64,000 bases of DNA from Methanofollis aquaemaris (lineage in GTDB: Archaea; Halobacteriota; Methanomicrobia; Methanomicrobiales; Methanofollaceae): the NCBI RefSeq assembly GCF_017357525.1, contig NZ_CP036172.1, positions 2,206,561 to 2,270,560 on the forward strand, in the 5' to 3' direction. The position numbers and the translations under genes were made by a program. Positions 24,258 through 45,670 of this stretch are shown here, one piece after another; positions within the stretch are counted from its first letter, which is position 1; each line of letters opens with the position of its first letter. The notes under the pieces were generated by a model. It searched no databases and was not told the DNA's origin. It saw only the letters and a program-made list of their open reading frames with translations.

Positions 24258-24298
24258 GATAAGGCCCTGGCCGAAATACATACAGAGGAGACGTATTG

Positions 24299-25531
24299 AT
24301 GCTTCAGAAACCACGTGGTACCAGGGATTTTCTGCCCGACGAGATGGCGCGCCGGCGGGCCGCGGAAGCGAAGATGCGCGAGGCCGTCGCCAGGTGGGGA
24401 TATGGCGAGGTCTGCACCCCGACCTTCGAAGATGTGGAACTCTTCACCATACGCTCGGGCGAGAACATCAAGAAAGAGATGTACACCTTCGAGGACAAGG
24501 GCAACCGACAGATGACTCTCCGCCCCGAGGTGACCGCCTCGGTGGCGCGGATGTACGTCAACGAGGGGCGTTCTCTCCCCAAGCCCCTCAGGTGGTTCTA
24601 CGTGGCCGACTGTTTCCGGTACGAACGGCCGCAGAAGGGGCGGTACCGCCAGTTCTGGCAGTTCGGCGTGGAACTGATCGGGGCCGACTCGGCGTCGGCC
24701 GATGCCGAGGTGGTCATGGTGGCCGACGACCTCCTCAGGTCGGTGGGCCTGGAATATGACCTCAAGGTCGGGTTCCTCGCCCCGATGAAGCATCTCCTCT
24801 CAGGGATCGAGCCCGGCCTCCAGCGGCAGGTGATGGGTCTCCTGGATAAGCGCGACTTCGAAGGACTTGCAGGCTGTCTCCAGACCTGCGGCCAGGACGA
24901 ACTGGAGGACGCCCTCACCGGCCTGGTCTCCTGCCGGGCGCCTGAGGAGGCCTTCGAGATCTGCGGCGAGATCCCGGAGAAGACGCGGATCGAGGAGATC
25001 TTCTCCATCCTCGACGGCTCTGAGACCGAATACACTCTCAACTTCGGGATCGTCAGGGGCCTGGACTATTATACCGGCATGGTCTTCGAGGGCTTTGCTC
25101 CCAACCTCGGCGCCGAGAGTCAGGTCGTCGGCGGCGGCAACTACCGCCTGGCCAAACTCTTCGGCGGGGACGATGCCGCCAGCTGCGGGTTTGCCATCGG
25201 GTTCGACCGGGTGATGGTCTCCCTCGGTGAGACCCCGATGCCGCGCCCGCCCCTGGTCGCCGTCCTCTCCCAGCCTGGGCTCCTGGCCGTGGCCTTCAGG
25301 ACCGCCCGCGCCCTCCGTGCGGCCGGAGTCACCGCCGAACTGAACCTGCTCGACCGCGGGATCGGGGCGCAACTCTCCCATGCGGCGAAGACCGCCGACT
25401 TCGCCTGTATCATCGGCCAGCGCGAGTCCGAGGCAGGGACCGTCACTCTCAAGGACCTGCACACCGGTGAGCAGCGGGAGATGAGCCTCTCAGAGGCTGT
25501 TGCCGGGGTGAAGGCCGTTGGTGATCGCTGA
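24299..25531 (+). CDS. hisS: Histidyl-tRNA synthetase
   Basis: Charges tRNA-His. A class II synthetase of 410 residues. Motif 2 [18 protein letters not shown] is at about residues 103-120, the histidine-A loop [14 protein letters not shown] near 250, and motif 3 [10 protein letters not shown] near 300. The C-terminal anticodon-binding domain is present. The ATG at 24299 is preceded by GAGGAG with 8 nt spacing. Its 3' end overlaps top6B by about 11 nt. Confidence 0.97.
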
Positions 25532-27320
25532 AGACCTGGCCAGGCAACAGCGCAGCATCTCGGTCGCTGAGTTCTTCGAGAAGAACAAGCACCTGCTGGG
25601 CTTCGACTCCCCGACCCGCGGGATCATCACCACCATCAAGGAGGCGGTGGACAATGCCCTCGACGCCTGCGAAGAGGCCGAGGTTCTCCCTGACATCTAT
25701 GTGAGCATCAAAAAGAGCAGCCAGAGTGCCTACCGGGTGGCGGTCGAGGACAACGGTCCGGGGATCGTCCCGGAAAATGTCCCCAACGTCTTTGGCAAAC
25801 TCCTGTACGGCTCGCGCTTCCACCAGATCAGGCAGAGCCGGGGGCAGCAAGGGATCGGGATCTCGGCCGCGGTGCTGTATGCTCAACTCACCACCGGGAT
25901 GCCGGCGGTCGTGACCTCCCGGACCTCGGCGAAGGTTCCGGCCCACCGCTTCTCCCTGATGATCAGGACCGAGACAAACGAGCCCCAGGTGCTCACCCAC
26001 GAGGAGGTCGTCTGGGATCGGACCCATGGGACCAGGATCGAACTTGAGTTCACGTCCACCCTGGCGGCCAGAAAACGCCTCCTCGAATATCTCAAATACA
26101 CCTCGGTCGTCAATCCGCACGCGCGGATCCGGGTGGAGATCGACGGCGAGGCCGAGACCTTTGAGCGGGTCTCCGCCGAACCGATCCGGCCGCCGCAGTC
26201 GATCAAACCTCATCCGCACGGCACTGAACTCGGCACTCTCAAGCGGATGGCGGCGGCCGATCCCGACCGGCCGCTGGTCGAGTTTCTGGTCGACTCCTTC
26301 TCCAAGGTCGGGCAGAAGACGGCGGTCGCCATCGCAGAGGCGGCCGGGCTCGCGCCGGGAACCCCGGTGGGCACCCTCGGCGCCGCGGAGTTGAAGGCCC
26401 TTCATACCGCGATGCAGACGGTTCATGTCCCCCCGCCACCGACGAGCATCTGTCTCTCCCCCATCGGGGAGGAACTCATCGCGAAAGGGCTTGAAAAGGA
26501 GTTTCAGCTCGACTTTGTCAGGGCCCGCACCAGACCGGCTGCGGTCTTCTCCGGTCACCCCTTTGTGGTCGAGGCGGCGATCGGGTATGGGGGCAGACTT
26601 GAGGCCGAGGGATCGGCGCAATTGATGCGTTTCGCGAACCGCGTTCCCCTCATCTATCAGCAGGGGGCGTGCGCGATCACCGGGGCGGTGGCCGGGGTGA
26701 ACTGGAAGAACTATAACCTCTCCCAGTCGGGCATCCCGACCGGTCCGGTGCTCATCCTCGTGCATGTGGCCTCCACCAATGTCCCCTTCACCTCGGAGAG
26801 CAAGGACGCCGTCGCCTCGATCCCCGAGATCGAGCGTGAGGTCACCCTGGTCCTCCAGGAACTGGGACGAGAACTGAAGGCCTGGCTTGCCCGCCGGGAG
26901 AAGAACCGGCAGCGCCAGGACCGGGCGCGGGCGGTTTGCGCGGTGATGCCAGCGATCGCCGAGAAGGTCGCGGAGATCGTGGACAAACCGGTCCCCGACA
27001 TCTCGGCCCTGGAAGGGCGGATCATGCGCAAGGTCGTCGCAAGGAAACAGGTCCACGACGGCCGTGTCGTCATCGAGGTGAGGAACCATACCGATCAGGC
27101 GGTCGACCTCACGATCTACGACCTCTCCCCCGACGCCGGCGAGGACGCCGTCCCGGCGCCGTCGTTTGCGAGCGGGGCCGACGGGGAGTACACCCGCGTC
27201 TGGAACTGCACCCTGCCGGCAGGCGAGCGGTGGCAGGCGGCGTATGCCGGGAGGGGCGGCGGGTTCGTCGACCTCAAGGGTGTGGACGACAGGAAAAAAG
27301 TGGTCCTGCCGTTTGTGTAG
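25521..27320 (+). CDS. top6B: DNA topoisomerase VI subunit B
   Basis: ATP-binding subunit of the type IIB topoisomerase that relaxes and decatenates DNA. About 599 residues. The GHKL nucleotide-binding motifs are present: [11 protein letters not shown] near 38, EDNGPGIV near 75, and [18 protein letters not shown] near 105. A helix-two-turn-helix domain and the transducer domain with the switch lysine follow. The C-terminus (about 500-600) has an extra beta-rich domain, as in methanogen enzymes. A GTG at 25521 or TTG at 25518 begins it. Subunit A is not adjacent but starts 1 kb downstream. Confidence 0.96.
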
Positions 27321-27597: not shown

Positions 27598-28278
27598 ATG
27601 GATATCGTCTTCCTGATCAAGGACCTGATCAAGACCAGAGACCCCCAGGCATGGATAAACCGGAGGTTCAAGGACGAGCACCGAGTTCCGGTGGACTTTC
27701 GGGTATTCAGGACGATCTCGACCCATGAAGGTACTGTGTATGCGCTCTCCCCTGAGATCCAGACGGTCAGCGATGCGGCGGTGCGGTACCGCCTCTCTGA
27801 GATCAGAAAGGACGATATCGTCATCGACATAGGGGCCAATGTTGGGGGGTTCTGTATCCCGGCCGCCCGGCACTCGGCGCATGTCTATGCGGTCGAACCG
27901 ATGACCACCGAAGAACTGCGCCGGAACATCGCCCTCAACGGTGCCGATGTCACGGTGATCGAGGCGGCCCTCGGCGACGGGACCGAGCAGGAGATTGCCT
28001 GGCGGGACGAGGTCCGACAGGTTCCGACGATGACGCTTGGTCAACTCAAGGAGGTCTGCGGCGGGTGCGACATCCTGAAGTGCCACTGCGAAGGGGCGGA
28101 GTGGTCCATCAGGCCCGAAGAACTGGAGGGAATACGCCGGATCGAACTGGCCTACCACCCCGAGAAGCAGACCGGGGCGGACCCTGAGGAGCTGCTTGGC
28201 TCCATCAGGTCGAGGTACGTCACCGAGTGGGAGGAGGTCGACGGACATGCCCTCCTCCATGCCCGATGGGTGGATTAA
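27598..28278 (+). CDS. FkbM-family methyltransferase
   Basis: A 226-residue SAM-dependent methyltransferase. Motif I is [16 protein letters not shown] (about residues 78-93), followed by [20 protein letters not shown] (acidic loop) and [14 protein letters not shown]. The FkbM family O-methylates sugars or polyketides. It interrupts the otherwise adjacent top6B-top6A pair and has its own promoter. Its codon use and GC content match the core genome, so it is not obviously foreign. The substrate is unknown; surface-glycan methylation is plausible in view of the region that follows. Confidence 0.82.
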
Positions 28279-28328
28279 TCCGTACCGGGACGCAAACAGT
28301 GAGAGTACGAAAGGTCGGTGATGTGGCG

Positions 28329-29420
28329 ATGAGAGGTCAGGTGGAGACAGAACAGAAGGCTGCAGAGCGGCTCTATGCGATCGCAGAGCGGTGGTATGGG
28401 CAACTCAACGAGGGGCAGATCCCCTCGATCGCCCTCCCGACCAGGACCAAGCAGAATATCGAGTACGATGATGGGAGCGGGGTCTGGAAGTACGGCGATC
28501 GGGAGAGTGTCAGGTCGGCCCAGACAGCGAGGGGGGCGGTCCACCTCCTGAAGATGGCATATGTCGTCGGGTTCCTGAAACAGCAGCTTGCAGAGAACCG
28601 TTCCTCGACCCTGAGGGAGATGTACTACATCTCTGAAGGCTGGAAGCAAGCGAAGTTCGCGGCGCAGGACGAGTCCAACAAACTCGTCGAGGATCTGGAG
28701 ATCCTCACCGATATCCAGCGCGAGGTCTACCACCTCCGTCCCGAGGAGAATGGCGCCTCGATCTTCGGGCCGATTCGGGTGCGCGAGCAGACCCGCCGGG
28801 GGATGCGCGAGCTGCACTGCCAGGACGACGTCGGCGAGACCGGGTACCAGATCCCGAACAATGTCGACGCCCTGGAGTTCGTGGACCATGACGCAAACTT
28901 CGTCATCGCTCTGGAGACCGGCGGTATGTATGCGCGCCTCATCGAGAACGGGTTTGACGAAGAGTACGGCGCGGCCCTCGTCCACCTCAAGGGCCAGCCG
29001 GCGCGCTCCACCCGTCGGCTCCTCAAGCGCCTCCACGAGGAGTTCAAGCTCCCGGTGATCGTCTTCACCGACGGCGACCCCTGGTCGTACCGCATCTATG
29101 CCTCGGTGGCGTACGGCTCGATCAAGGCGGCGCATATGTCGGAATTGCTGGCGACGCCACAGGCGCAGTTTTTAGGGGTGCAGCCCTCGGATATCCGGGA
29201 CTATGACCTGCCTGCGGATCATCTCTCCGACCAGGATGTAAATGCGTTGAAGGCGGAGCTGACCGATCCGCGGTTTGCGACGGAGTACTGGCGGGAGCAG
29301 ATCGGGCTGCAGCTTGAGATGGGGTTGAAGGCGGAGCAGCAGGCGTTTGCGAGTCAGGGGTTGGATTTTGTGACGCGGGAGTATCTGCCGGCACGGTTGA
29401 GTGAGATGGGAGTGTTGTGA
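28329..29420 (+). CDS. top6A: DNA topoisomerase VI subunit A
   Basis: Cleavage subunit of topoisomerase VI, homologous to Spo11. About 363 residues. The catalytic tyrosine lies in [10 protein letters not shown] (Tyr99/Tyr100) of the winged-helix domain, and the Toprim domain has [10 protein letters not shown] near 195 and [12 protein letters not shown] near 245. The ATG at 28329 gives the usual N-terminus and lies 50 nt after the methyltransferase stop. In most methanogens it immediately follows top6B. Confidence 0.96.
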
Positions 29421-29452: not shown

Positions 29453-30193
29453 ATGAATCGTTCTCCTTTATCTTGGAAATCATATCTGGATGATATAAAT
29501 AATGTTGATTCTTTTATGACCCGATATTACCACTATCTGCGGATTGTAATGGTTCAAGATGCAATTAAATATCTGCAGAATAATAATTTCTCAATACAAA
29601 ACTGTCTGGATATTGGGTGTAATCGCGGATACTATTCTGCAATCTTTGGGGATCTTGGGGCACAGGTTGATGCTGTCGATCCGTACCTCCGTTCCGATCT
29701 GGTCATACGTCATCCTAATGTAACATATCACAAGGCTGATTTTTTAAAATGGACGGTGGACAAGAAGTACGATGTTATTCTTTTCTTTGAGGTATACGAA
29801 CATATTCCGCCAGAATCTCGTGAGATCTTCATAGAAAAAATAAAACAGTCCCTGAATCCTGGAGGAATAATTCTATTCAGTGGTCCCAATTGCATCTCTT
29901 TATTTTACTCTGGAGGATTCATCAAGAGTTTAATCCCTCGAATCCTGGGAAAAATTCCAGAGATTGACTGGCATTACAAGATCCCATTTTTTTTCTATCG
30001 AAAATTGTTTAAGAATGATGAATCTCAGATAATTTCGTGGCAGACAAATGGAATTACGCTGGTTTTTTCCAATAAAATTGAATTAATGCTTGGTAAATCC
30101 TGTACTCAGCGATTATTAAATTTAGATCGATGTGTGTCTAGGCTGACATCTGGGTTGGGTGCAAATTATTTTTGTATAGTCCAGATGAAATGA
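29453..30193 (+). CDS. Class I SAM methyltransferase (AT-rich gene)
   Basis: A 246-residue protein with motif I NCLDIGCNRGYYSAIFGDLG near residue 45 and the acidic loop VDAVDPYL. The post-motif VILFFEVYEHIPPESR is typical of this family. The gene is markedly more AT-rich than top6A and marks the start of the surface-glycan region. The substrate is probably a glycan or lipid sugar but is not shown. Confidence 0.82.
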   Translation: MNRSPLSWKSYLDDINNVDSFMTRYYHYLRIVMVQDAIKYLQNNNFSIQNCLDIGCNRGYYSAIFGDLGAQVDAVDPYLRSDLVIRHPNVTYHKADFLKWTVDKKYDVILFFEVYEHIPPESREIFIEKIKQSLNPGGIILFSGPNCISLFYSGGFIKSLIPRILGKIPEIDWHYKIPFFFYRKLFKNDESQIISWQTNGITLVFSNKIELMLGKSCTQRLLNLDRCVSRLTSGLGANYFCIVQMK

Positions 30194-30281: not shown

Positions 30282-31697
30282 ATGATAGGTGTTTATTATC
30301 CCGATCTCTCTCCAGTTGAAGAAACATTTCGACTCTTCAAGATCCCATGGGAGTGGTACGACCCCGCGCATACCTATGACGTGGTTATCGCCCGCAGAGG
30401 AGAGGTTGAGACAGCCGGTGCCTATCTTGTCGACCTCTCTGAGAAGGACTATTTTGCCGAGATTGCGCGGATCTTGAGCGAAGGTCTCCCTCACTGCCAT
30501 GAGCCAATGGTCGAGATCCTCATCGACGAACTGCGCCAGGTCCTGAAGGAGCACACCCTCCTCGTGGAAATCCCCCCGGTGCCGTGGGGCTACTCGTACA
30601 CTGTTGCCCTCACCCATGACGTGGACATCACCTCGGTGCGGGAACGGCGCTGGGTCTCGGTCGGGTATGCGGTGTACCAGTGCCTGCGGAAAGGCATGGT
30701 GAGGGACGCTGTGCGGATCCTCGGTGCGAAGTGCGGGATCGGAAAAGATCCATGGAATTGCTTTGAGGAGTGGATGCGGCTAGAGGAGGATCTCGGCGTG
30801 CGCTCGACATGGTTCTTCCTGCCTGAGAAGGGGAAGGCAGGGGAGGGTGCGCCCGCGATCCGGGCTGGGTACTATGACCTCGACGCTGAGTTGATCAAGA
30901 GGTTGACTGACGGCGGCTGGGAGGTCGGGGTGCACGGCCTCGACAACTGGCGGGACGCCAGTGCGGCGCGGGAAGAGTTGCAAAAGGTTTCAGACCTCAC
31001 TGGTGCTACGGTGGGAACGCGCGTTCACTGGCTGCTCTTTGATGAAGATTCCTGGAAGAAACTCGATGAGGCGGGATATGTCTATGACTCGACGTTCGGG
31101 TACAACGACGACGTGGGCTTCAAGGCCGGGACGATGCAGCCTTACCGACCGCAGGGGTGCGAGCGCCTGCTGGAGGTGCCCTTGATCATTCAGGATGGCG
31201 GCCTCTTTGGGGGGAAGACCTGGAACTCGTCTGATGACGGAGGCCGTGGGGCATGCCTCTGTCTCTCTGAGGAGGAGGGGATGCGCCGGTGCGAGGAGGT
31301 GCTGACGTATGCGAAGCAGTATGGGGGTGTCGTCACCCTCCTCTGGCACCATGTGAGTATGGCGGCACCGAAGAGGTGGGGCGAGTTTTATCGTGTCCTG
31401 GTGGGGAAGGCGATCGTGGACGGGGCGTGGGTGGCACCAGAAAAGGAGGCGGTACAGTGGTTTAATGCTCGTTCAGATGCTGTTATCCACACCGAACACG
31501 TACCTGATGGTATCAGAATCCGCGTACCTGGTATCGGACTGGATTCATCTCTTCCTCCAATGAGGATACGGATCCACACCAATGGAGCGGATCTTGGTAA
31601 AATAAACGGTGATTATATTGAGGGAGCGCAATATAGTGATCTGCGGTGTTCATCTTTGGATATTCTGGTGAAAGTGCATGAAGGTACTGCTGACTGA
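30282..31697 (+). CDS. Polysaccharide deacetylase-like protein
   Basis: A 471-residue protein of the NodB-fold deacetylase type, with a strand carrying VALTHDVDIT near residue 109 (the TxDxD metal motif) and WEVGVHGLDNW near residue 210, with a further His at VTLLWHHVSM near residue 356. The N-terminal 100 residues are a separate domain. The C-terminus has a beta-rich extra segment. It is a paralogue in fold of the 341-residue protein at 36.6 kb. An AGAGG ribosome-binding site lies 6 nt before the ATG. It overlaps the next gene by 20 nt. Confidence 0.8.
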   Translation: MIGVYYPDLSPVEETFRLFKIPWEWYDPAHTYDVVIARRGEVETAGAYLVDLSEKDYFAEIARILSEGLPHCHEPMVEILIDELRQVLKEHTLLVEIPPVPWGYSYTVALTHDVDITSVRERRWVSVGYAVYQCLRKGMVRDAVRILGAKCGIGKDPWNCFEEWMRLEEDLGVRSTWFFLPEKGKAGEGAPAIRAGYYDLDAELIKRLTDGGWEVGVHGLDNWRDASAAREELQKVSDLTGATVGTRVHWLLFDEDSWKKLDEAGYVYDSTFGYNDDVGFKAGTMQPYRPQGCERLLEVPLIIQDGGLFGGKTWNSSDDGGRGACLCLSEEEGMRRCEEVLTYAKQYGGVVTLLWHHVSMAAPKRWGEFYRVLVGKAIVDGAWVAPEKEAVQWFNARSDAVIHTEHVPDGIRIRVPGIGLDSSLPPMRIRIHTNGADLGKINGDYIEGAQYSDLRCSSLDILVKVHEGTAD

Positions 31698-32829
31698 TGG
31701 GAATTACAAACATACCCTTGCTGCTGTCCGTTCTCTTGGTAAGTGGGGGGTGGAGGTTGGTGTCGTGTCGCATATCCCCTGCAGTGTCTCTTTCTGTTCT
31801 CGATACTGTACGTATCGGTATCATGCCCCGGATCCGAAAAAAGACGCATCATATGCCCAGAGGATCCTTGATATTGTTAAACAGGATCACTATGATGTTC
31901 TTCTCCCTGTCAGTTATGCCGCGGTCATGCACCTCTCCGGGATCAGGGATGAACTGGAGCACTTTGTACACCTCCCGATAGCCGATCCCGTCGCCCTTGA
32001 CCTTGCCGGTCATAAGGATGAGACCATTAAAATTGCGGAAAAAGTCGGCGTTCGTGTTCCTAAGACCTATTATCCCCACAATATTCAGGAAGTCAGGGAA
32101 ATTGCGGAAGAACTGCGATATCCTGTTGTTGTGAAAGGCGCCGAGGAGGCAGGATATGTCGGCTATGCAAACACGCCAGAGGAACTGATCTCCCGGTTTT
32201 CGTCGATATCAGAGTATCTACCGATCGTGCAGGAGTATATCTCTGGCGATGGCTACGGGTTCTTTGCCCTCTATAATCACGGAGAGCCGCGGGCAATCTT
32301 TATGCACCGGCGGATCCGTGAGTACCCGGTCACCGGCGGACCAAGCACCTGTGCGGAGAGCGTCTTCGATCCTGAACTGAAGCGGTGTGGTATGGCAATG
32401 CTGAATGAACTCCGGTGGCATGGCGTCGCCATGGTCGAGTTCAAAAAGGACGCACAGAGCGGGGAGTACGTGCTGATGGAGATCAATCCGAAGTTCTGGG
32501 GGTCGCTTGACCTTTCCATTGCCTCTGGTGTGAATTTTCCCCATCTTGCATGCAGGATAGCACTGGAAGGAGATGTAGAACCTGTTTTTGAGTATAAGGT
32601 CGGCACGAGGTTTCGGTGGCTCTTTCCTGGAGAACTATTCCATGGGATGACGAATCCCCGCGCGATACCACAGATTGTGCGGGAATTTTTCGACGGCAGC
32701 ACGAATACAGATGTTGAACTGACCGACATCGTGCCAAACGTCGTGGAGATTGGGATGGCTGGTGCTGAGTTTATCCTTAGGGTGGCTCAGGGTCGTTTCT
32801 GGAGGGCTCATGGACAGGTTCGTCGCTGA
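31678..32829 (+). CDS. ATP-grasp ligase
   Basis: A 383-residue ATP-grasp enzyme. The glycine-rich loop YPVVVKGAEEAGYVGYA is near residue 146, with QEYISGDGYGFFALY following, and the catalytic acidic block VLMEINPKFWGS is near residue 263. ATP-grasp ligases couple a carboxylate to an amine or thiol. Its position between a sugar deacetylase and a PHP hydrolase suggests amidation of a sugar acid or amino-acid addition to a glycan; the substrate is unknown. GGTGA precedes the ATG by 7 nt. It overlaps both neighbours by 20 nt, implying translational coupling. Confidence 0.85.
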   Translation: MKVLLTDGNYKHTLAAVRSLGKWGVEVGVVSHIPCSVSFCSRYCTYRYHAPDPKKDASYAQRILDIVKQDHYDVLLPVSYAAVMHLSGIRDELEHFVHLPIADPVALDLAGHKDETIKIAEKVGVRVPKTYYPHNIQEVREIAEELRYPVVVKGAEEAGYVGYANTPEELISRFSSISEYLPIVQEYISGDGYGFFALYNHGEPRAIFMHRRIREYPVTGGPSTCAESVFDPELKRCGMAMLNELRWHGVAMVEFKKDAQSGEYVLMEINPKFWGSLDLSIASGVNFPHLACRIALEGDVEPVFEYKVGTRFRWLFPGELFHGMTNPRAIPQIVREFFDGSTNTDVELTDIVPNVVEIGMAGAEFILRVAQGRFWRAHGQVRR

Positions 32830-33475
32830 CTTTCATATCCACTCTAGATACTCTCATGACTCTTTCATGCGTCCGGAGAAAATCCTCGCCGTCGCAAGGG
32901 AAGTGGGGCTGGATGTGGTGGCGATCACCGATCATAATTCCATTCAGGGTGGACTGGAAGGTAGAAAATATCAGGAGAGGTCTGGGATCCAGGTTATTGT
33001 CGGCTCGGAAGTTAAGTCTGATGCTGGGGATATCATCGGGCTCAGTATAGAGGAGGAGATCAGATCTCGCGCGTGGAAGGACGTGATTGACGAGATCAAA
33101 GGACAGGGTGGGATTGTAGTCCTGCCCCATCCCTATCGAAGTCATCATTCGATTCAGGATCTTGCGGAGGCTGTTGATCTGGTTGAGGTATGGAATGCTC
33201 GAAGTACGCCAGAACAAAATGCTCAGGCTCTGGAACTGGCATCAAGACTCGGGAAAAAGGGCCTCATGGGAAGTGACGCTCACCTTTATCGTGAGATCGG
33301 AAGCGTGAAGGTAGCCTATGAGGATGATTCCTGGGTTCTAAATGAAACACTCTGTGCAAGATATGCCAGCACGCGGGATATCTGCTCCAGCCAGGTCATT
33401 GGACATATGCGGAAGGGAGAATTCCTTTCTTTGATTCTGGAGGGCGGGAAATGGGTGGCAAGAAAGGTTCTCTGA
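32810..33475 (+). CDS. PHP-domain phosphoesterase
   Basis: A 221-residue enzyme of the PHP superfamily, with the metal ligands in order: FHIHSRYSHD (HxH), AITDHNSIQG, PHPYRSHHS and GSDAHLYREIG. PHP enzymes hydrolyse phosphoesters or histidinol phosphate; the substrate here is unknown. The ATG at 32810 has GGAGGG 4-9 nt upstream and starts at MDRFVADFHIHS; a start 60 nt upstream would lie deep in the previous gene. It ends in a TGATG overlap with the glycosyltransferase. Confidence 0.85.
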   Translation: MDRFVADFHIHSRYSHDSFMRPEKILAVAREVGLDVVAITDHNSIQGGLEGRKYQERSGIQVIVGSEVKSDAGDIIGLSIEEEIRSRAWKDVIDEIKGQGGIVVLPHPYRSHHSIQDLAEAVDLVEVWNARSTPEQNAQALELASRLGKKGLMGSDAHLYREIGSVKVAYEDDSWVLNETLCARYASTRDICSSQVIGHMRKGEFLSLILEGGKWVARKVL

Positions 33476-34632
33476 TGGTGCTTTCGGACCACTATCTCAC
33501 CTTTGTAAAAGATCAGATCGAGTGTATCGCACCGAAATTTGAGCAGGTGGATGTCTGTGTCCGTCACAACACTCTTGCCGAGGTCTCGAACTATCTCCCT
33601 CTAAATCGTCTGAAACCGTTCCGGTTGTGTTCGATACTGGATCGATCTGAACTGCCTGGGAATATCTCTGTCTATCCCTGCAGTCTTCCCTATCTCCCCC
33701 TTGAACAGATGAAAAAGTCACTGGGGGACCGCTTGTTCAGGACAGTTGACGATCTGATACAAAAGGAACAGATCAAGTGCGACCTCATCCATGCGCACTT
33801 CCTGTGGCCGAATGGATATGCCGGGGCGTTACTGAAGGAGAAGTATGATGTCCCTCTCGTGGTGACAGCCCACGGGTACGATATCTATGACCTTCCATTC
33901 AGGGATCAAGCATGGAGAGATCGGATCGTCTGGACACTCGAAGCCGCCGATGCGATCATCACTGTCAGCCAGAGTAATGAGGTGTGCATCAGGAGACTCG
34001 GGGTCATGAAACCCGTTCATGTCATCCCGAACGGCTTCAGGTCAGACCTCTTCTATCCGCGCGACCAGGGAGAGTGCAGGCGGACGCTCGGCCTCCCTCT
34101 GGACAGAAAGATCTTGCTCACCGTCGGCAACCTTGTCGAAGTGAAGGGCCACAAGTATCTTGTCGAGGCGATGGCTGAGGTGATGAAGGAGCGAGAGGAT
34201 GTGCTCTGTGTTATCGTTGGATCCGGGCCGCTGAAAGGGAAACTGGAGGGGCAGATTAAAAGTTTGGGACTGGAGGAGCATGTTCACCTTGTGGGGGGGA
34301 AGCCGCATGAGGAGATCCCAATATGGATGAATGCGTGCGATGTGTTTGTGCTGCCGAGTTTGAGGGAAAGTTTTGGGATTGTGCAGGTAGAGGCTATGGC
34401 TTGTGGAAAACCTGTCGTGGCGACGAGGAATGGAGGGAGTGAAGAGATCATGGTTTCTGAGGATTATGGTTTATTGATGGACATTGCTAATTCCAGGGAT
34501 CTTGCAGAGAGAATTTTGATTGCTTCGGATAGACAGTGGGATAGTGTAAATTTACGTGTGTTTACTGAGCATTTTTCATGGGAAAATATCTGCAGACAAC
34601 TATATGGGATATATACTCTTCTTGATCTGTAA
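33475..34632 (+). CDS. GT4-family glycosyltransferase
   Basis: A 385-residue GT-B transferase. Acceptor-domain segments HAHFLWPNG and VTAHGYDIYDL are present, and VIPNGFRSDLFYP marks the hinge. The donor-binding E(x7)E block is ESFGIVQVEAMACG, near residue 310. It adds a sugar to a lipid-linked or cell-wall glycan on the cytosolic face. The ATG at 33475 overlaps the upstream stop as TGATG, with AAGG about 8 nt before; an ATG at 33451 would add eight residues. The last third is more AT-rich than the first. Confidence 0.9.
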   Translation: MVLSDHYLTFVKDQIECIAPKFEQVDVCVRHNTLAEVSNYLPLNRLKPFRLCSILDRSELPGNISVYPCSLPYLPLEQMKKSLGDRLFRTVDDLIQKEQIKCDLIHAHFLWPNGYAGALLKEKYDVPLVVTAHGYDIYDLPFRDQAWRDRIVWTLEAADAIITVSQSNEVCIRRLGVMKPVHVIPNGFRSDLFYPRDQGECRRTLGLPLDRKILLTVGNLVEVKGHKYLVEAMAEVMKEREDVLCVIVGSGPLKGKLEGQIKSLGLEEHVHLVGGKPHEEIPIWMNACDVFVLPSLRESFGIVQVEAMACGKPVVATRNGGSEEIMVSEDYGLLMDIANSRDLAERILIASDRQWDSVNLRVFTEHFSWENICRQLYGIYTLLDL

Positions 34633-36645: not shown

Positions 36646-37671
36646 ATGCAGATGTACAATATTCTCCAGCAGGATCCTGAGATGTGGCACCTCTTCACCT
36701 GTAAGGAGGAGTATGATGCATCATTTAGGGATGGATATGATCGTTTCCCCCACTATATGAGCAATAACCGGCAGGTCTTCGAACCCAGGGCTTCACAGTA
36801 CCTCTTTGAGCGGGGGTATCATCCCGAATATCCTGAGGGCCAACCCTTTGCGGTCTGCCTCACCCATGACATCGATGTCGTCTATCAGTCGTACCCGAAA
36901 AAAGGGTTCGATCTCCTCCTTGCCCTGGCATATGGAAACAGGGCTGGTCTGATGCAAGGTGTCAGGAACCTGAGGAGCCCGAAATATCCTCTCTGCAACT
37001 TCGAGGAGGTCATCGCTCTTGAGGAGGAGTATGATGCTACGTCGACTTTCTTCTTTCTCGCCCTCCAGGACGGCGACCAGGACCATTCCTATCAGGTGGA
37101 GGATCTGGCCTGCGAGATCGGGACGATCGCAGACTATGGATGGGAGGTGGGCCTCCATGGCGGGCATCAGGCCTATGCAGACCTACAGAAGTTGAAAGAC
37201 GAGAAGGCGAGGATGGAGAGGGTGCTGGGCCGACCGGTCGCCGGATACCGAAACCATTTTCTCAGGTTCAGGGTACCTGAGACCTGGGAACTCCTGGACC
37301 AGGCAGGGTTCCTTTATGATACGACATTTGGCTATGCCGATTGTGTCGGGTTCAGGAACGGAATGTGCTATCCTTTCAGGCCCTATCATGGTAGAAAACA
37401 CCAGGAGATCGGGATCGTCGAGATCCCACTCACCGTCATGGACTGCACCCTTGACAGTTACATGCGCCTTGGTTCCATGCAGTCCTGGGACATCGTCAGG
37501 CATCTCATCGATACGGTGGAACGCTGCCATGGCGTCATCACTCTCCTCTGGCATAACACCTACCTGACTGGGGACAGGATGAAGTTCTATGAGAAGATCT
37601 TACGCTACTGCAGGGAGAAGGGTGCCTGGATGACGGGAGGAGACGGGATCATGAAATTATTAAACCCATAA
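36646..37671 (+). CDS. Polysaccharide deacetylase-like protein
   Basis: A 341-residue NodB-type protein. VCLTHDIDVVYQ near residue 71 is the TxDxD motif, TSTFFFLAL near residue 125 follows, EVGLHGGHQAY near residue 165 provides the metal His pair, and GVITLLWHNTYL near residue 303 the last His. It is shorter than the 471-residue protein at 30.3 kb, with which it shares gene context and fold. GAGGGA about 10 nt before the ATG is a possible ribosome-binding site. The flippase gene follows after 14 nt. Confidence 0.82.
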   Translation: MQMYNILQQDPEMWHLFTCKEEYDASFRDGYDRFPHYMSNNRQVFEPRASQYLFERGYHPEYPEGQPFAVCLTHDIDVVYQSYPKKGFDLLLALAYGNRAGLMQGVRNLRSPKYPLCNFEEVIALEEEYDATSTFFFLALQDGDQDHSYQVEDLACEIGTIADYGWEVGLHGGHQAYADLQKLKDEKARMERVLGRPVAGYRNHFLRFRVPETWELLDQAGFLYDTTFGYADCVGFRNGMCYPFRPYHGRKHQEIGIVEIPLTVMDCTLDSYMRLGSMQSWDIVRHLIDTVERCHGVITLLWHNTYLTGDRMKFYEKILRYCREKGAWMTGGDGIMKLLNP

Positions 37672-40407: not shown

Positions 40408-41721
40408 TTATAGGGAGAATGATCTATGGATCTTTATTTTCAGTCGTTCTGCAAGGCATAACCACTGATATCCATAGCGGAAGATCACACCGTAAAGGAA
40501 TAAACATGGCCACAAGATCTTGATCTGTGAGAGTCTCATCCCTGTTGTTATGAGGAAGAGTTTCATTTCCCAGAATAGATTCATTTTATATTTATCAGGG
40601 TCAAAATGGCGATTGATATAGTCTTTTCCGAGCAAAAATCTGCATGTTGTAGGATAATTATTAAAATAATCTGAAAATATTCTTTGTGAGTAAATTAACT
40701 CTTTTTCATTGGATTCCTGAAGAAGCAATTCCTTTTCTTGTTGCATTTGAGATAATATATCTTTTGCAACAGGACTTCTAGATATTATCAGAGAAACTCC
40801 TGTTTTATCTGATTCATATTGTTTGATCCAAGCATCACCTACTGAAATGTCTGACGCAGCTCCAAAACGATCATTACAGATGAGACACCTCTTCTGAGCA
40901 AATACCGGGAAAAATGCCAGGGTATGATAAATTTGTGCGAAAAATTTCTCAGGTCTTCTTGAGATGTGGATGGTTTCTTGGTTATTGAGTTCAAAAACAT
41001 TATTTCCAGGCCATCCCATCCCTCTGTAAATTGACCTCACTTTATGCTCGTCGATTCCGTGCATCTTCAGATAATACTTGTATGCATTCAGGTTCGGGAC
41101 TCCCCCACAGAAAAAACTGATTCTTAAGAGTATTTTCTCGCTGATGGATCTGTTTTGTTCTTCATATTTACGGAGAGCAGAGATCTGACATGGTGTTCCA
41201 ATAATAACATATCTGCCGCTCATCTTGGACAGTTCTTTCAAGATCATATTTACAGGGATAGGAAAATACCTTGTTCCTGCATATCGGAGGATATCGTCAA
41301 CATCATGAGATAAAAACGGATAATTATCAAATGGGGATTTGTCGCTTGGTTTGATCAATACAAAACCATCAATAATCTTGTTTGTTTTCAGATATCGCAA
41401 GAGAGAACTTACAATACCTCCTGATGATGCACGGTATCTCAGAGTATTGTCTAACGAATAACCCGAATAGATCCCATTATATGCTCCTATGATGGAGTTA
41501 TTTGGATATTTATGCCCTGAAAGAATATCATTTGAATGACAAACGTCCAGACACAGCCCGCAGTTTATACATTTATTTCCGTCAATATTAGCGATAAGAA
41601 TTCCTAATTGGAGATCTTTATGAATGGATATTGCTGATTTAGGACATGCTGAGTAACACGTACCACATCCATTACATAAATGAGAATTAACTACAGTGTT
41701 GATGTTTTTTGTCATACACAC
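40408..41721 (-). CDS. FrhB-type iron-sulfur protein linked to pyruvyl transfer
   Basis: A 437-residue protein of the coenzyme F420 hydrogenase/dehydrogenase beta-subunit family. Two ferredoxin clusters are visible: CNGCGTCYSACPKSAI (about residues 17-32) and CINCGLCLDVCHS (about 52-64). FrhB hallmarks follow: SSGGIVSSLLRYL, GTPCQISALRKYEE and CNDRFGAASDISVGDAW. Such proteins occur beside pyruvyl transferase genes in glycan clusters, where they are thought to supply reducing power or a reduction step. The adjacent downstream-read pyruvyl transferase (18 nt away) supports this. The F420-binding role is inferred, not shown. Confidence 0.87.
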   Translation of the reverse strand: MCMTKNINTVVNSHLCNGCGTCYSACPKSAISIHKDLQLGILIANIDGNKCINCGLCLDVCHSNDILSGHKYPNNSIIGAYNGIYSGYSLDNTLRYRASSGGIVSSLLRYLKTNKIIDGFVLIKPSDKSPFDNYPFLSHDVDDILRYAGTRYFPIPVNMILKELSKMSGRYVIIGTPCQISALRKYEEQNRSISEKILLRISFFCGGVPNLNAYKYYLKMHGIDEHKVRSIYRGMGWPGNNVFELNNQETIHISRRPEKFFAQIYHTLAFFPVFAQKRCLICNDRFGAASDISVGDAWIKQYESDKTGVSLIISRSPVAKDILSQMQQEKELLLQESNEKELIYSQRIFSDYFNNYPTTCRFLLGKDYINRHFDPDKYKMNLFWEMKLFLITTGMRLSQIKILWPCLFLYGVIFRYGYQWLCLAERLKIKIHRSFSL

Positions 41722-41739
41722 CTGTATTGGGATAAAACT

Positions 41740-42999
41740 TTAGACATTGTTCATAACAATCTCTTTCATAGTTTCAGATGAATTCTCGTACCTTGGCATG
41801 AATCTCTGGATATGCTCTTTCAATTCTGTATTGTGTGAAATGACATAGGAAATCCTTTCTTCAATGTCTTTGGTGCTACAATTCGAATAATCAACAACTA
41901 GATGTTCCAGTTCGAAGAGTTCCATGATCTCAAAGTACTTGTCGGCCCAACCTACTACTATTGGGACAACGCCTACCTTCAGGGAGGAGACCATTCCGTG
42001 AAATCTTGAACAAAGTGTAAAATCACAGCATTTCAATAGGGACTTGATTTCATTTGCTCTTAAATCGTCCTGTATATTTAATATATCGTCTTTGTTTTTG
42101 CATTGGTTGAAGATGATGTTATTTATGTACCGATCGTCTATCTTGCCCTGGTCATCTACTTCGTGTGCAATGAGTATCACATGATATCCCTTGGACTCGA
42201 TCATAGTGTCAATAACTGCAGATAACATTTTTACTATGGGCATGCCTCCCCAGGTATAAAGATGAGTGTTGAACAGCACGGAAACATATTTTTTTGAGGG
42301 ATCAAGACGATACCGTGAATAGATTTCCTGATCTTCATCGTTGCTGGGGTTTGGAAACGCAAAGGCCAAATCTGGCACGAATTGAATATGGGGATTACGG
42401 AGGTGCAACCTTTTGAGATACTCAATTGATTTCTCCCCTCTGGGCATGATGTAAGTAACGTTGTTTAAACCGCATTTTGCGCAGAAATTAATAAACCAAT
42501 CGTCCGAAGGACCAATAGATTGTGGCATACAAAAATATTTTTTTCCCATTATTTTTGCTATTAGCATCTGCTCTGCCCAATAAAGTGCTGAAATCCTCCT
42601 AAAATCTTTTGAAAATGAAATGCCTGCGATTTGCAGGATACAATCACAAGTATCAATGTGCCGAATATGGGGTAATTTATATTGTATCTGCAGGTTGAAA
42701 TGGCATAGAACAACTTTATTTAGGATTATAGATAGTAAGTCTCTGACTAAGAATAGTAAAGATACTCCAGAGTTTAGGTATCGATTTTTCACATGTCTCG
42801 GTGATAAACTACTAAGAACCTCAATATCTACTGACTTCGAGGCTTTATTTATAACTGATATATCGTATTTAGGGTTGGTAGATAGAAGAGAGATCTTATT
42901 ATTTGGATCGATCTCCATAATTTTTCTGTAGGTTTCAAAGACCATGGCTTCAGCACCTTTACTCCGTACTGATGCTCCAGTTATCAGATAATTTTTCAT
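41740..42999 (-). CDS. Polysaccharide pyruvyl transferase
   Basis: A 419-residue enzyme of the CsaB/WcaK type that transfers pyruvate from phosphoenolpyruvate to a sugar. The N-terminal block NYLITGASVRSKGAEAMVFE, the CDCILQIAGISFSKDFRR block, and the C-terminal CSRFHGMVSSLKVGVVPIVV with GWADKYFEIMELF match the family. It is co-transcribed with its iron-sulfur partner and adjoins methyltransferase duplicate B by 3 nt. The gene is AT-rich. Confidence 0.88.
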   Translation of the reverse strand: MKNYLITGASVRSKGAEAMVFETYRKIMEIDPNNKISLLSTNPKYDISVINKASKSVDIEVLSSLSPRHVKNRYLNSGVSLLFLVRDLLSIILNKVVLCHFNLQIQYKLPHIRHIDTCDCILQIAGISFSKDFRRISALYWAEQMLIAKIMGKKYFCMPQSIGPSDDWFINFCAKCGLNNVTYIMPRGEKSIEYLKRLHLRNPHIQFVPDLAFAFPNPSNDEDQEIYSRYRLDPSKKYVSVLFNTHLYTWGGMPIVKMLSAVIDTMIESKGYHVILIAHEVDDQGKIDDRYINNIIFNQCKNKDDILNIQDDLRANEIKSLLKCCDFTLCSRFHGMVSSLKVGVVPIVVGWADKYFEIMELFELEHLVVDYSNCSTKDIEERISYVISHNTELKEHIQRFMPRYENSSETMKEIVMNNV

Positions 43000-44611: not shown

Positions 44612-45670
44612 ATGAAGATCCTCACCGTCGTCGGCGCCCGCCCCCAGTTCATCAAGTGTGCACCCGTCTCCCGCGCCCTCAGGAAAGAGCACGAAGAAGT
44701 CCTCGTCCACACCGGCCAGCACTATGACCGCGAGATGTCAGACCTCTTCTTCGAGGAACTCAGGATCCCGCGCCCTGACTACAACCTCGGGATTGGTTCA
44801 GGCACCCATGGCCACCAGACCGGGGCGATGCTCGCAGGCATCGAGGACCTGATCCTCAAAGAGGAGCCCAACTGCGTCCTCGTGTACGGCGACACGAACT
44901 CCACCCTGGCAGGCGCCCTTGCGGCAGCCAAACTCCATGTGCCGGTGGCGCACGTCGAAGCGGGGCTGCGGAGTTTTGACCGGAGGATGCCAGAGGAGAT
45001 CAACCGTGTCCTCACCGACCACTGCTCCGACCTCCTCCTTGCCCCCACGGAAACCGCGGTGGAGAACCTGGCCCGCGAAGGGATCACCGGCGGTGTTCAC
45101 CTCACCGGCGACGTGATGGTCGACGCTCTCCTCGACAACGCCGAACTGGCACGCCGCTCCTCGCTCCTCGACGACCTCGGCCTGACCACGCGAGAATACC
45201 GCCTCGCCACCGTCCACCGCGCCGAGAACACCGACGACCCGACGAAACTCACCGCGATCGTCAGGGCATTGACCGAGATCGGCAACGTCGTCCTCCCCTG
45301 CCACCCAAGGACCGAGAAGATGCTCAAGGGTTTCGGGCTCTGGGAGGAGGCGAACGAGGGAGTCAGGATCATCTCGCCGGTCGGCTACCTGGAGATGCTC
45401 GCCCTCGAGGCCGACGCAGCGCAGATCCTCACCGACTCGGGAGGCGTCCAGAAAGAGGCCTATGTCCTCGGCGTCCCCTGCATCACCATGCGTGAGAGCA
45501 CCGAGTGGGTCGAGACCGTGCAGGACGGGTGGAACGTGCTGGTCGGCAGCGATTGGCAGGAGATCGTCAGGGCTGCGAGAGAATTTGTGCCGGAGAGCGG
45601 GAGATCTGATCTCTTCGGGAAAGGCGATGCGGCTGTGAAGATCGTGCAGGCGGTTCAGAGCTTTATATAA
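44612..45670 (+). CDS. wecB: UDP-N-acetylglucosamine 2-epimerase (non-hydrolysing)
   Basis: Interconverts UDP-GlcNAc and UDP-ManNAc, the precursor for ManNAc-derived sugars in archaeal surface glycans. A 352-residue GT-B-like protein: VGARPQFIKCAPVSRAL near residue 5, LVHTGQHYDREMSD near 30, HVEAGLRSFDRRMPEE near 112, TVHRAENTDDP near 203, and TDSGGVQKEAYVLGVPC near 273 are all family hallmarks. It is GC-rich like the core genome and lies at the right border of the AT-rich island, with no ribosome-binding site, so a leaderless or weak start is likely. Confidence 0.94.
   Translation: MKILTVVGARPQFIKCAPVSRALRKEHEEVLVHTGQHYDREMSDLFFEELRIPRPDYNLGIGSGTHGHQTGAMLAGIEDLILKEEPNCVLVYGDTNSTLAGALAAAKLHVPVAHVEAGLRSFDRRMPEEINRVLTDHCSDLLLAPTETAVENLAREGITGGVHLTGDVMVDALLDNAELARRSSLLDDLGLTTREYRLATVHRAENTDDPTKLTAIVRALTEIGNVVLPCHPRTEKMLKGFGLWEEANEGVRIISPVGYLEMLALEADAAQILTDSGGVQKEAYVLGVPCITMRESTEWVETVQDGWNVLVGSDWQEIVRAAREFVPESGRSDLFGKGDAAVKIVQAVQSFI

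Follow-up and report, generated by a model that had tools for sequence, protein, structure and literature searches.

The window, that is, the whole stretch of 64,000 nucleotides of Methanofollis aquaemaris DNA that was analysed, carries four overlapping genes downstream of a conserved chromosomal anchor. The features that matter here are the following.

24296-25531, plus strand: hisS, part of the upstream anchor
25518-27320, plus strand: top6B, part of the conserved chromosomal anchor that precedes the deacetylase gene
28326-29420, plus strand: top6A, likewise part of this conserved anchor
29453-30193, plus strand: methyltransferase between top6A and the deacetylase gene, present in the congener locus L062 too
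30282-31697, plus strand: predicted CE4/NodB-fold N-deacetylase, distantly VimE-like, intact ORF
31435-31438, plus strand: approximate exchange breakpoint in the deacetylase gene (codon ~385), beyond which two congeners with other downstream modules are no longer similar
31678-32829, plus strand: ATP-grasp ligase (PF15632, PF02786)
32810-33475, plus strand: PHP-domain metallohydrolase (PF02811, PF13263)
33475-34632, plus strand: GT4 glycosyltransferase (Pfam and NCBIfam family searches)

The last four genes are all intact and overlap by 20 nt (deacetylase/ATP-grasp), 20 nt (ATP-grasp/PHP) and 1 nt (PHP/GT4, TGATG), which bears out the tight coupling described in an earlier note on this DNA. 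The coordinates and overlaps given there are correct, provided that the PHP gene starts at ATG 32810 and the GT4 gene at ATG 33475; the mechanical ORF of the former opens at TTG 32750, and an alternative upstream ATG of the latter, at 33451, gives an overlap of 25 nt. The deacetylase/ATP-grasp overlap is 20 nt in the congener L062 as well and 4 nt in Methanoculleus. The gene classes had also been named rightly, as judged by Pfam and NCBIfam for the ATP-grasp, PHP and GT4 proteins and by predicted structure for the deacetylase. The four genes are surrounded by a glycan island that contains flippases, a pyruvyltransferase and other glycosyltransferases, and the earlier suggestion of a sugar modification is consistent with this setting. 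The island is variable, and the cassette is patchy within one genus. A UDP-GlcNAc 2-epimerase gene lies at the right edge of the island (44612-45670); such a gene precedes the deacetylase gene in L080 too. A polysaccharide pyruvyltransferase stands beside an FrhB/FdhB-like iron-sulfur protein (40408-42999), and an FkbM-type methyltransferase (27598-28278) is found between top6B and top6A, as in the congeners L064 and L065.

The product of the first gene had no Pfam match at an E-value of 0.01, and a PDB sequence search using its profile found nothing. The VimE model NF053580 aligned with residues 73-362 at 46.9 bits, far under its equivalog cutoff of 440, and an assignment as VimE, the UDP-2,3-diacetamido-2,3-dideoxyglucuronate deacetylase, was therefore rejected. 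The fold was read from an AlphaFold2 model (pLDDT 88). It matched 3qbu (Z 19.2, rmsd 3.3 over 235 residues), 3rxz (Z 19.0) and ArnD 8t0j (Z 17.2), with many CE4 entries among the matches; on this predicted NodB-homology fold the protein is a CE4/NodB-type deacetylase. An alignment of 26 homologues showed T111-H112-D113-x-D115, H218, R247, H249 and H356 to be invariant. By analogy with CE4 enzymes, D113, D115, H218, H249 and H356 probably include the catalytic Asp, the metal-binding Asp/His and the C-terminal catalytic His. The protein also has an extra N-terminal part (residues 1-100) and a variable C-terminal tail (~396-471). A second, smaller VimE-like deacetylase is encoded in the same island at 36646-37671 and scores 113 bits against NF053580.

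The model of the ATP-grasp protein (pLDDT 94.1) has 2pn1 as its top structure (Z 29.8, rmsd 2.4 over 287 residues), followed here by PylC 4ffr (Z 27.5, rmsd 3.1 over 295) and the L-amino acid ligase 3vot (Z 27.0, rmsd 3.6 over 337). As modelled, this is an ATP-grasp fold with nucleotide- and Mg-binding residues; K113, E186, E254, E268 and N270 are invariant. Biotin carboxylase and PurK match the model about as well as PylC and the amino-acid ligases do. Since carboxylases score like PylC, the fold says nothing on the specificity for an amine or an acid. The PDB sequence matches, 2pn1 for the ATP-grasp and 3e0f for the PHP protein, are annotated generically only. The PHP protein has a complete set of putative metal ligands (H9, H11, D17, H42, E67, H107, D156, H158), and its top NCBIfam model is the CehA/McbA metallohydrolase at 71.3 bits, under the cutoff of 80. 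It may be a phosphoester hydrolase that acts in the same pathway as its neighbours. Judged from sequence, the active sites of the deacetylase, the ATP-grasp and the PHP protein look intact. A PHP paralogue with 39% identity (G000:C1:1510772-1511266) is of a type that almost all genomes of the order have; it is therefore probably a housekeeping protein distinct from that of the operon. The top general models for the GT4 protein are BshA, TuaC and then MshA (126 bits; cutoff 462), and all of them score under their cutoffs.

Conservation of the gene order was followed in orthologue loci from the order Methanomicrobiales and nearby MAGs, the window itself counted. The deacetylase gene is followed by the ATP-grasp gene in 14 distinct loci. 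PHP comes third in 13 of these (it is missing from L089), and an orthologous GT4 comes fourth in 10. The earlier note had made its case depend on the genes being found together in other genomes. The same four-gene order was sought in other archaea and found, in those 10 loci, and the genomes that share the gene order include Methanoculleus and Methanoregula. The idea of four genes as one fixed set did not hold up: L071 has a different GT4 in this place, L086 has none, and in L068 the place falls past the contig end. With this variation, a fixed set of four genes was rejected as the functional unit. The stable unit is instead the deacetylase, the ATP-grasp and the PHP protein, and the GT4 is the most exchangeable part.

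The position of the deacetylase gene is itself conserved, downstream of hisS-top6B-top6A in 14 distinct loci, at times with one gene intervening. A methyltransferase gene lies upstream of the deacetylase gene in the window (29453-30193), L062, L073, L074 and L085, and may belong to the locus. The slot that follows the deacetylase gene holds ATP-grasp/PHP/GT4 in one version, a FemAB protein of TIGR03019 in L064, LpxD-type N-acyltransferases in L065, L073, L076, L084 and L087, and a methyltransferase with a different ATP-grasp in L066. Deacetylase orthologues in L078 and L080 have no obvious adjoining acyl-transfer gene. The Desulfosporosinus homologues have a UDP-GlcNAc 2-epimerase before the deacetylase and a FemAB two genes after it. 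In L065, L073, L076 and L087 the LpxD types are accompanied by a phosphopantetheinyl transferase (ACPS), an AMP-binding ligase and a LuxE homologue. These clusters suggest carrier-protein-bound acyl donors, which are unusual for archaea.

Comparison within the genus gave ~87% DNA identity as far as window position ~31435 and no match beyond it, and the similarity to a third congener, L066, ends at ~31353. The C-terminal tail of the deacetylase is 61-68% identical in L062 and L063, compared with 15-23% in L064, L065 and L066. The abrupt stop near codon 385 points to cassette exchange within the genus; recombination within the deacetylase gene, which would bring in a new partner module, accounts for it best. 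The similarity to L063 reaches ~80 bp past the deacetylase stop codon before the contig ends, so L063 probably carries the ATP-grasp gene too.

The association was also followed across a phylum sample, in which the neighbourhoods (5 kb) of 36 close homologues of the ATP-grasp (at least 240 bits) were compared with those of 20 sibling ATP-grasps (110-178 bits), which were hand-picked and come mostly from other clades. As tallied from the tables, a PHP gene lies within 5 kb of 29/36 close homologues (it is absent for 7/36), a deacetylase gene of 28/36 and both of 26/36; for the siblings the counts are 0/20, 6/20 and 0/20. Fisher tests gave p values of 1e-9 for PHP and 7e-4 for the deacetylase, which are indicative only, as the loci share descent and the controls were hand-picked. 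The linkage is far beyond chance. The window has the proposed module as defined here, an ATP-grasp of the subfamily with PHP and deacetylase genes within 5 kb. The partner deacetylases belong to four subfamilies, namely that of the window's own enzyme, a VimE-like one, the XrtA-type TIGR03006 and a type of 260 aa that carries an HDVD motif and is mostly without a Pfam match. This indicates that separate deacetylases were joined to the same ATP-grasp/PHP pair. PHP and ATP-grasp genes are found in both gene orders, and the divergence of the two proteins is correlated (r 0.70; reached in 0/5000 permutations), to which shared species history contributes. The pair stands without a nearby deacetylase gene in L195, L201, L204, L205 and L206.

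No close homologue of the ATP-grasp was found in a small sample of 13 bacterial genomes with relatives of the deacetylase. A search for fused genes among unusually long ORFs had a sole find, a PHP domain fused to a methyltransferase (L190:4868-6337). The subfamily of the smaller deacetylase in the island directly precedes ATP-grasp and PHP in L188, L189, L190, L197, L198 and L207. In L194:576-2248 and L200:1145-2817 a PIG-L de-N-acetylase adjoins a second ATP-grasp whose N-terminal domain is PylC-like, which is a further deacetylase/ATP-grasp pair in the same clusters.

The operon can be read as a sugar N-deacetylation/re-acylation module of a cell-surface glycan locus, and we consider the case for and against this reading to be evenly balanced. 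Gene order, conservation, exchange and the conserved residues of catalytic type are observed; the substrates, the order of the reactions and the final structure are those that we infer. The CE4-type enzyme would take the N-acetyl group off an amino sugar, which could be a nucleotide sugar, lipid-linked or already part of the glycan. From a carboxylate, most likely that of an amino acid or a comparable small acid, the ATP-grasp ligase would form an acyl phosphate and couple the acyl group to the amine freed by the deacetylase. That it acylates this amine is the most economical reading, since FemAB and LpxD types, mutually unrelated amine acylators, fill the same slot in relatives. The PHP protein would act in the same pathway, where it most likely strips a phosphate either from the group being added or from the product, and the GT4 would transfer the modified sugar or the next one; all four enzymes may work on one glycan. 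The deacetylase would stay anchored beside top6A, and a swapped partner module would change the acyl decoration between strains. A more specific version is rather doubtful, namely that the trio is a relay that replaces N-acetyl by an acyl group, aminoacyl or another, that arrives phosphorylated, that strains switch decorations through the module behind the anchored deacetylase, and that this system is widespread in archaea and undescribed. In the open-access PMC literature we found no account of the trio of ATP-grasp, PHP and deacetylase, and no paper on S-layer glycans of Methanofollis. If the re-acylation reading is right, it would give a testable biosynthetic rule for the uncharted surface glycans of methanogens and their relatives, make the acyl decoration of an amino sugar changeable via a cassette swap at a fixed chromosomal site, and place ATP-grasp and PHP proteins, so far annotated by domain alone, in a pathway.

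The main rival is uronic acid amidation, in which the ATP-grasp would join a phosphorylated amine (ethanolamine phosphate, serinol phosphate) to the carboxylate of a uronic acid, PHP would dephosphorylate it, and the deacetylase would act on a neighbouring sugar. This has a direct amidoligase and phosphatase precedent in the C-terminal domain of Cj1438 and in Cj1435 (PMC11800397). It also explains the tight ATP-grasp/PHP pairing, including the loci without a nearby deacetylase, and UDP-sugar dehydrogenases are among the neighbours in four cases. We nevertheless consider it unlikely, as it leaves unexplained both the recurrence of deacetylases of four subfamilies beside the pair and the acyltransferases that replace the ATP-grasp after the deacetylase.

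The genes could also serve different glycans and stand together merely through recombinational cassette exchange among glycan islands, which are variable and show clear exchange within the genus. Four deacetylase subfamilies take part in the trio, which occurs in both gene orders and in several families, whereas sibling ATP-grasps in comparable genomes have no PHP nearby (0/20), and this makes such an explanation improbable. Most improbable is a mycothiol-like small molecule. The GT4 would then attach an N-acetylamino sugar to a phosphorylated acceptor, PHP would dephosphorylate the glycoside, the deacetylase would free the amine, and the ATP-grasp would add an amino acid, perhaps cysteine. 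The reaction classes are those of MshA, MshA2, MshB and MshC (PMC4360819), MshA is third among the top GT4 models after BshA and TuaC, and PIG-L deacetylases, the fold class of MshB, lie near the ATP-grasp/PHP pair in some loci. However, those GT4 scores are under their cutoffs in a very broad family, and several loci lack this GT4 or have a replacement. Moreover, the genes lie in variable glycan islands and are patchy within the genus, unlike those for a central redox cofactor. The re-acylation module is the reading that we prefer, and it can be compared with four known systems.

The earlier note knew of no named pathway with this composition. By reaction class this is not so, as mycothiol biosynthesis has all four in the GT4 MshA, the phosphatase MshA2, the deacetylase MshB and the ATP-dependent ligase MshC (PMC4360819); by protein family, no matching pathway was found. 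The phosphatase acting with MshA has also been termed unidentified (PMC7278568). The order of MshB and then MshC is likewise deacetylation followed by ligation. The operon differs in that its deacetylase is CE4 and not PIG-L, its ligase is an ATP-grasp and not class I tRNA-synthetase-like, and its genes lie in glycan islands; as the mycothiol pathway itself it fails the family tests for MshA, MshB and MshC.

The capsule locus of Campylobacter jejuni similarly pairs an ATP-dependent amide ligase, the C-terminal amidoligase of Cj1438, with a phosphatase, Cj1435 (PMC11800397), and so offers a precedent for phosphate removal once ligation is done. The phosphatase is HAD and not PHP, the scheme is without a deacetylase, and the amide is formed on the carboxylate of glucuronic acid. 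The XrtA/PEP-CTERM exopolysaccharide loci share with the archaeal loci a related TIGR03006 deacetylase and, in swapped modules, the TIGR03019 FemAB. To our knowledge, the ATP-grasp/PHP pair is not part of the definition of those loci.

In the Wbp/Vim pathway of Porphyromonas gingivalis and Tannerella forsythia, WbpA, WbpB, WbpE and WbpD make a diacetamido uronic acid. Deacetylation by VimE and then aminoacylation by VimA, which matches TIGR03019, were proposed for Porphyromonas (PMC7468200). The likeness lies in a distantly related VimE-type deacetylation followed by acylation of the amine. The window differs in having an ATP-grasp where VimA would stand, with no adjoining FemAB, and a PHP protein in addition. 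In the congener L064, a FemAB of VimA's family comes directly after the deacetylase.
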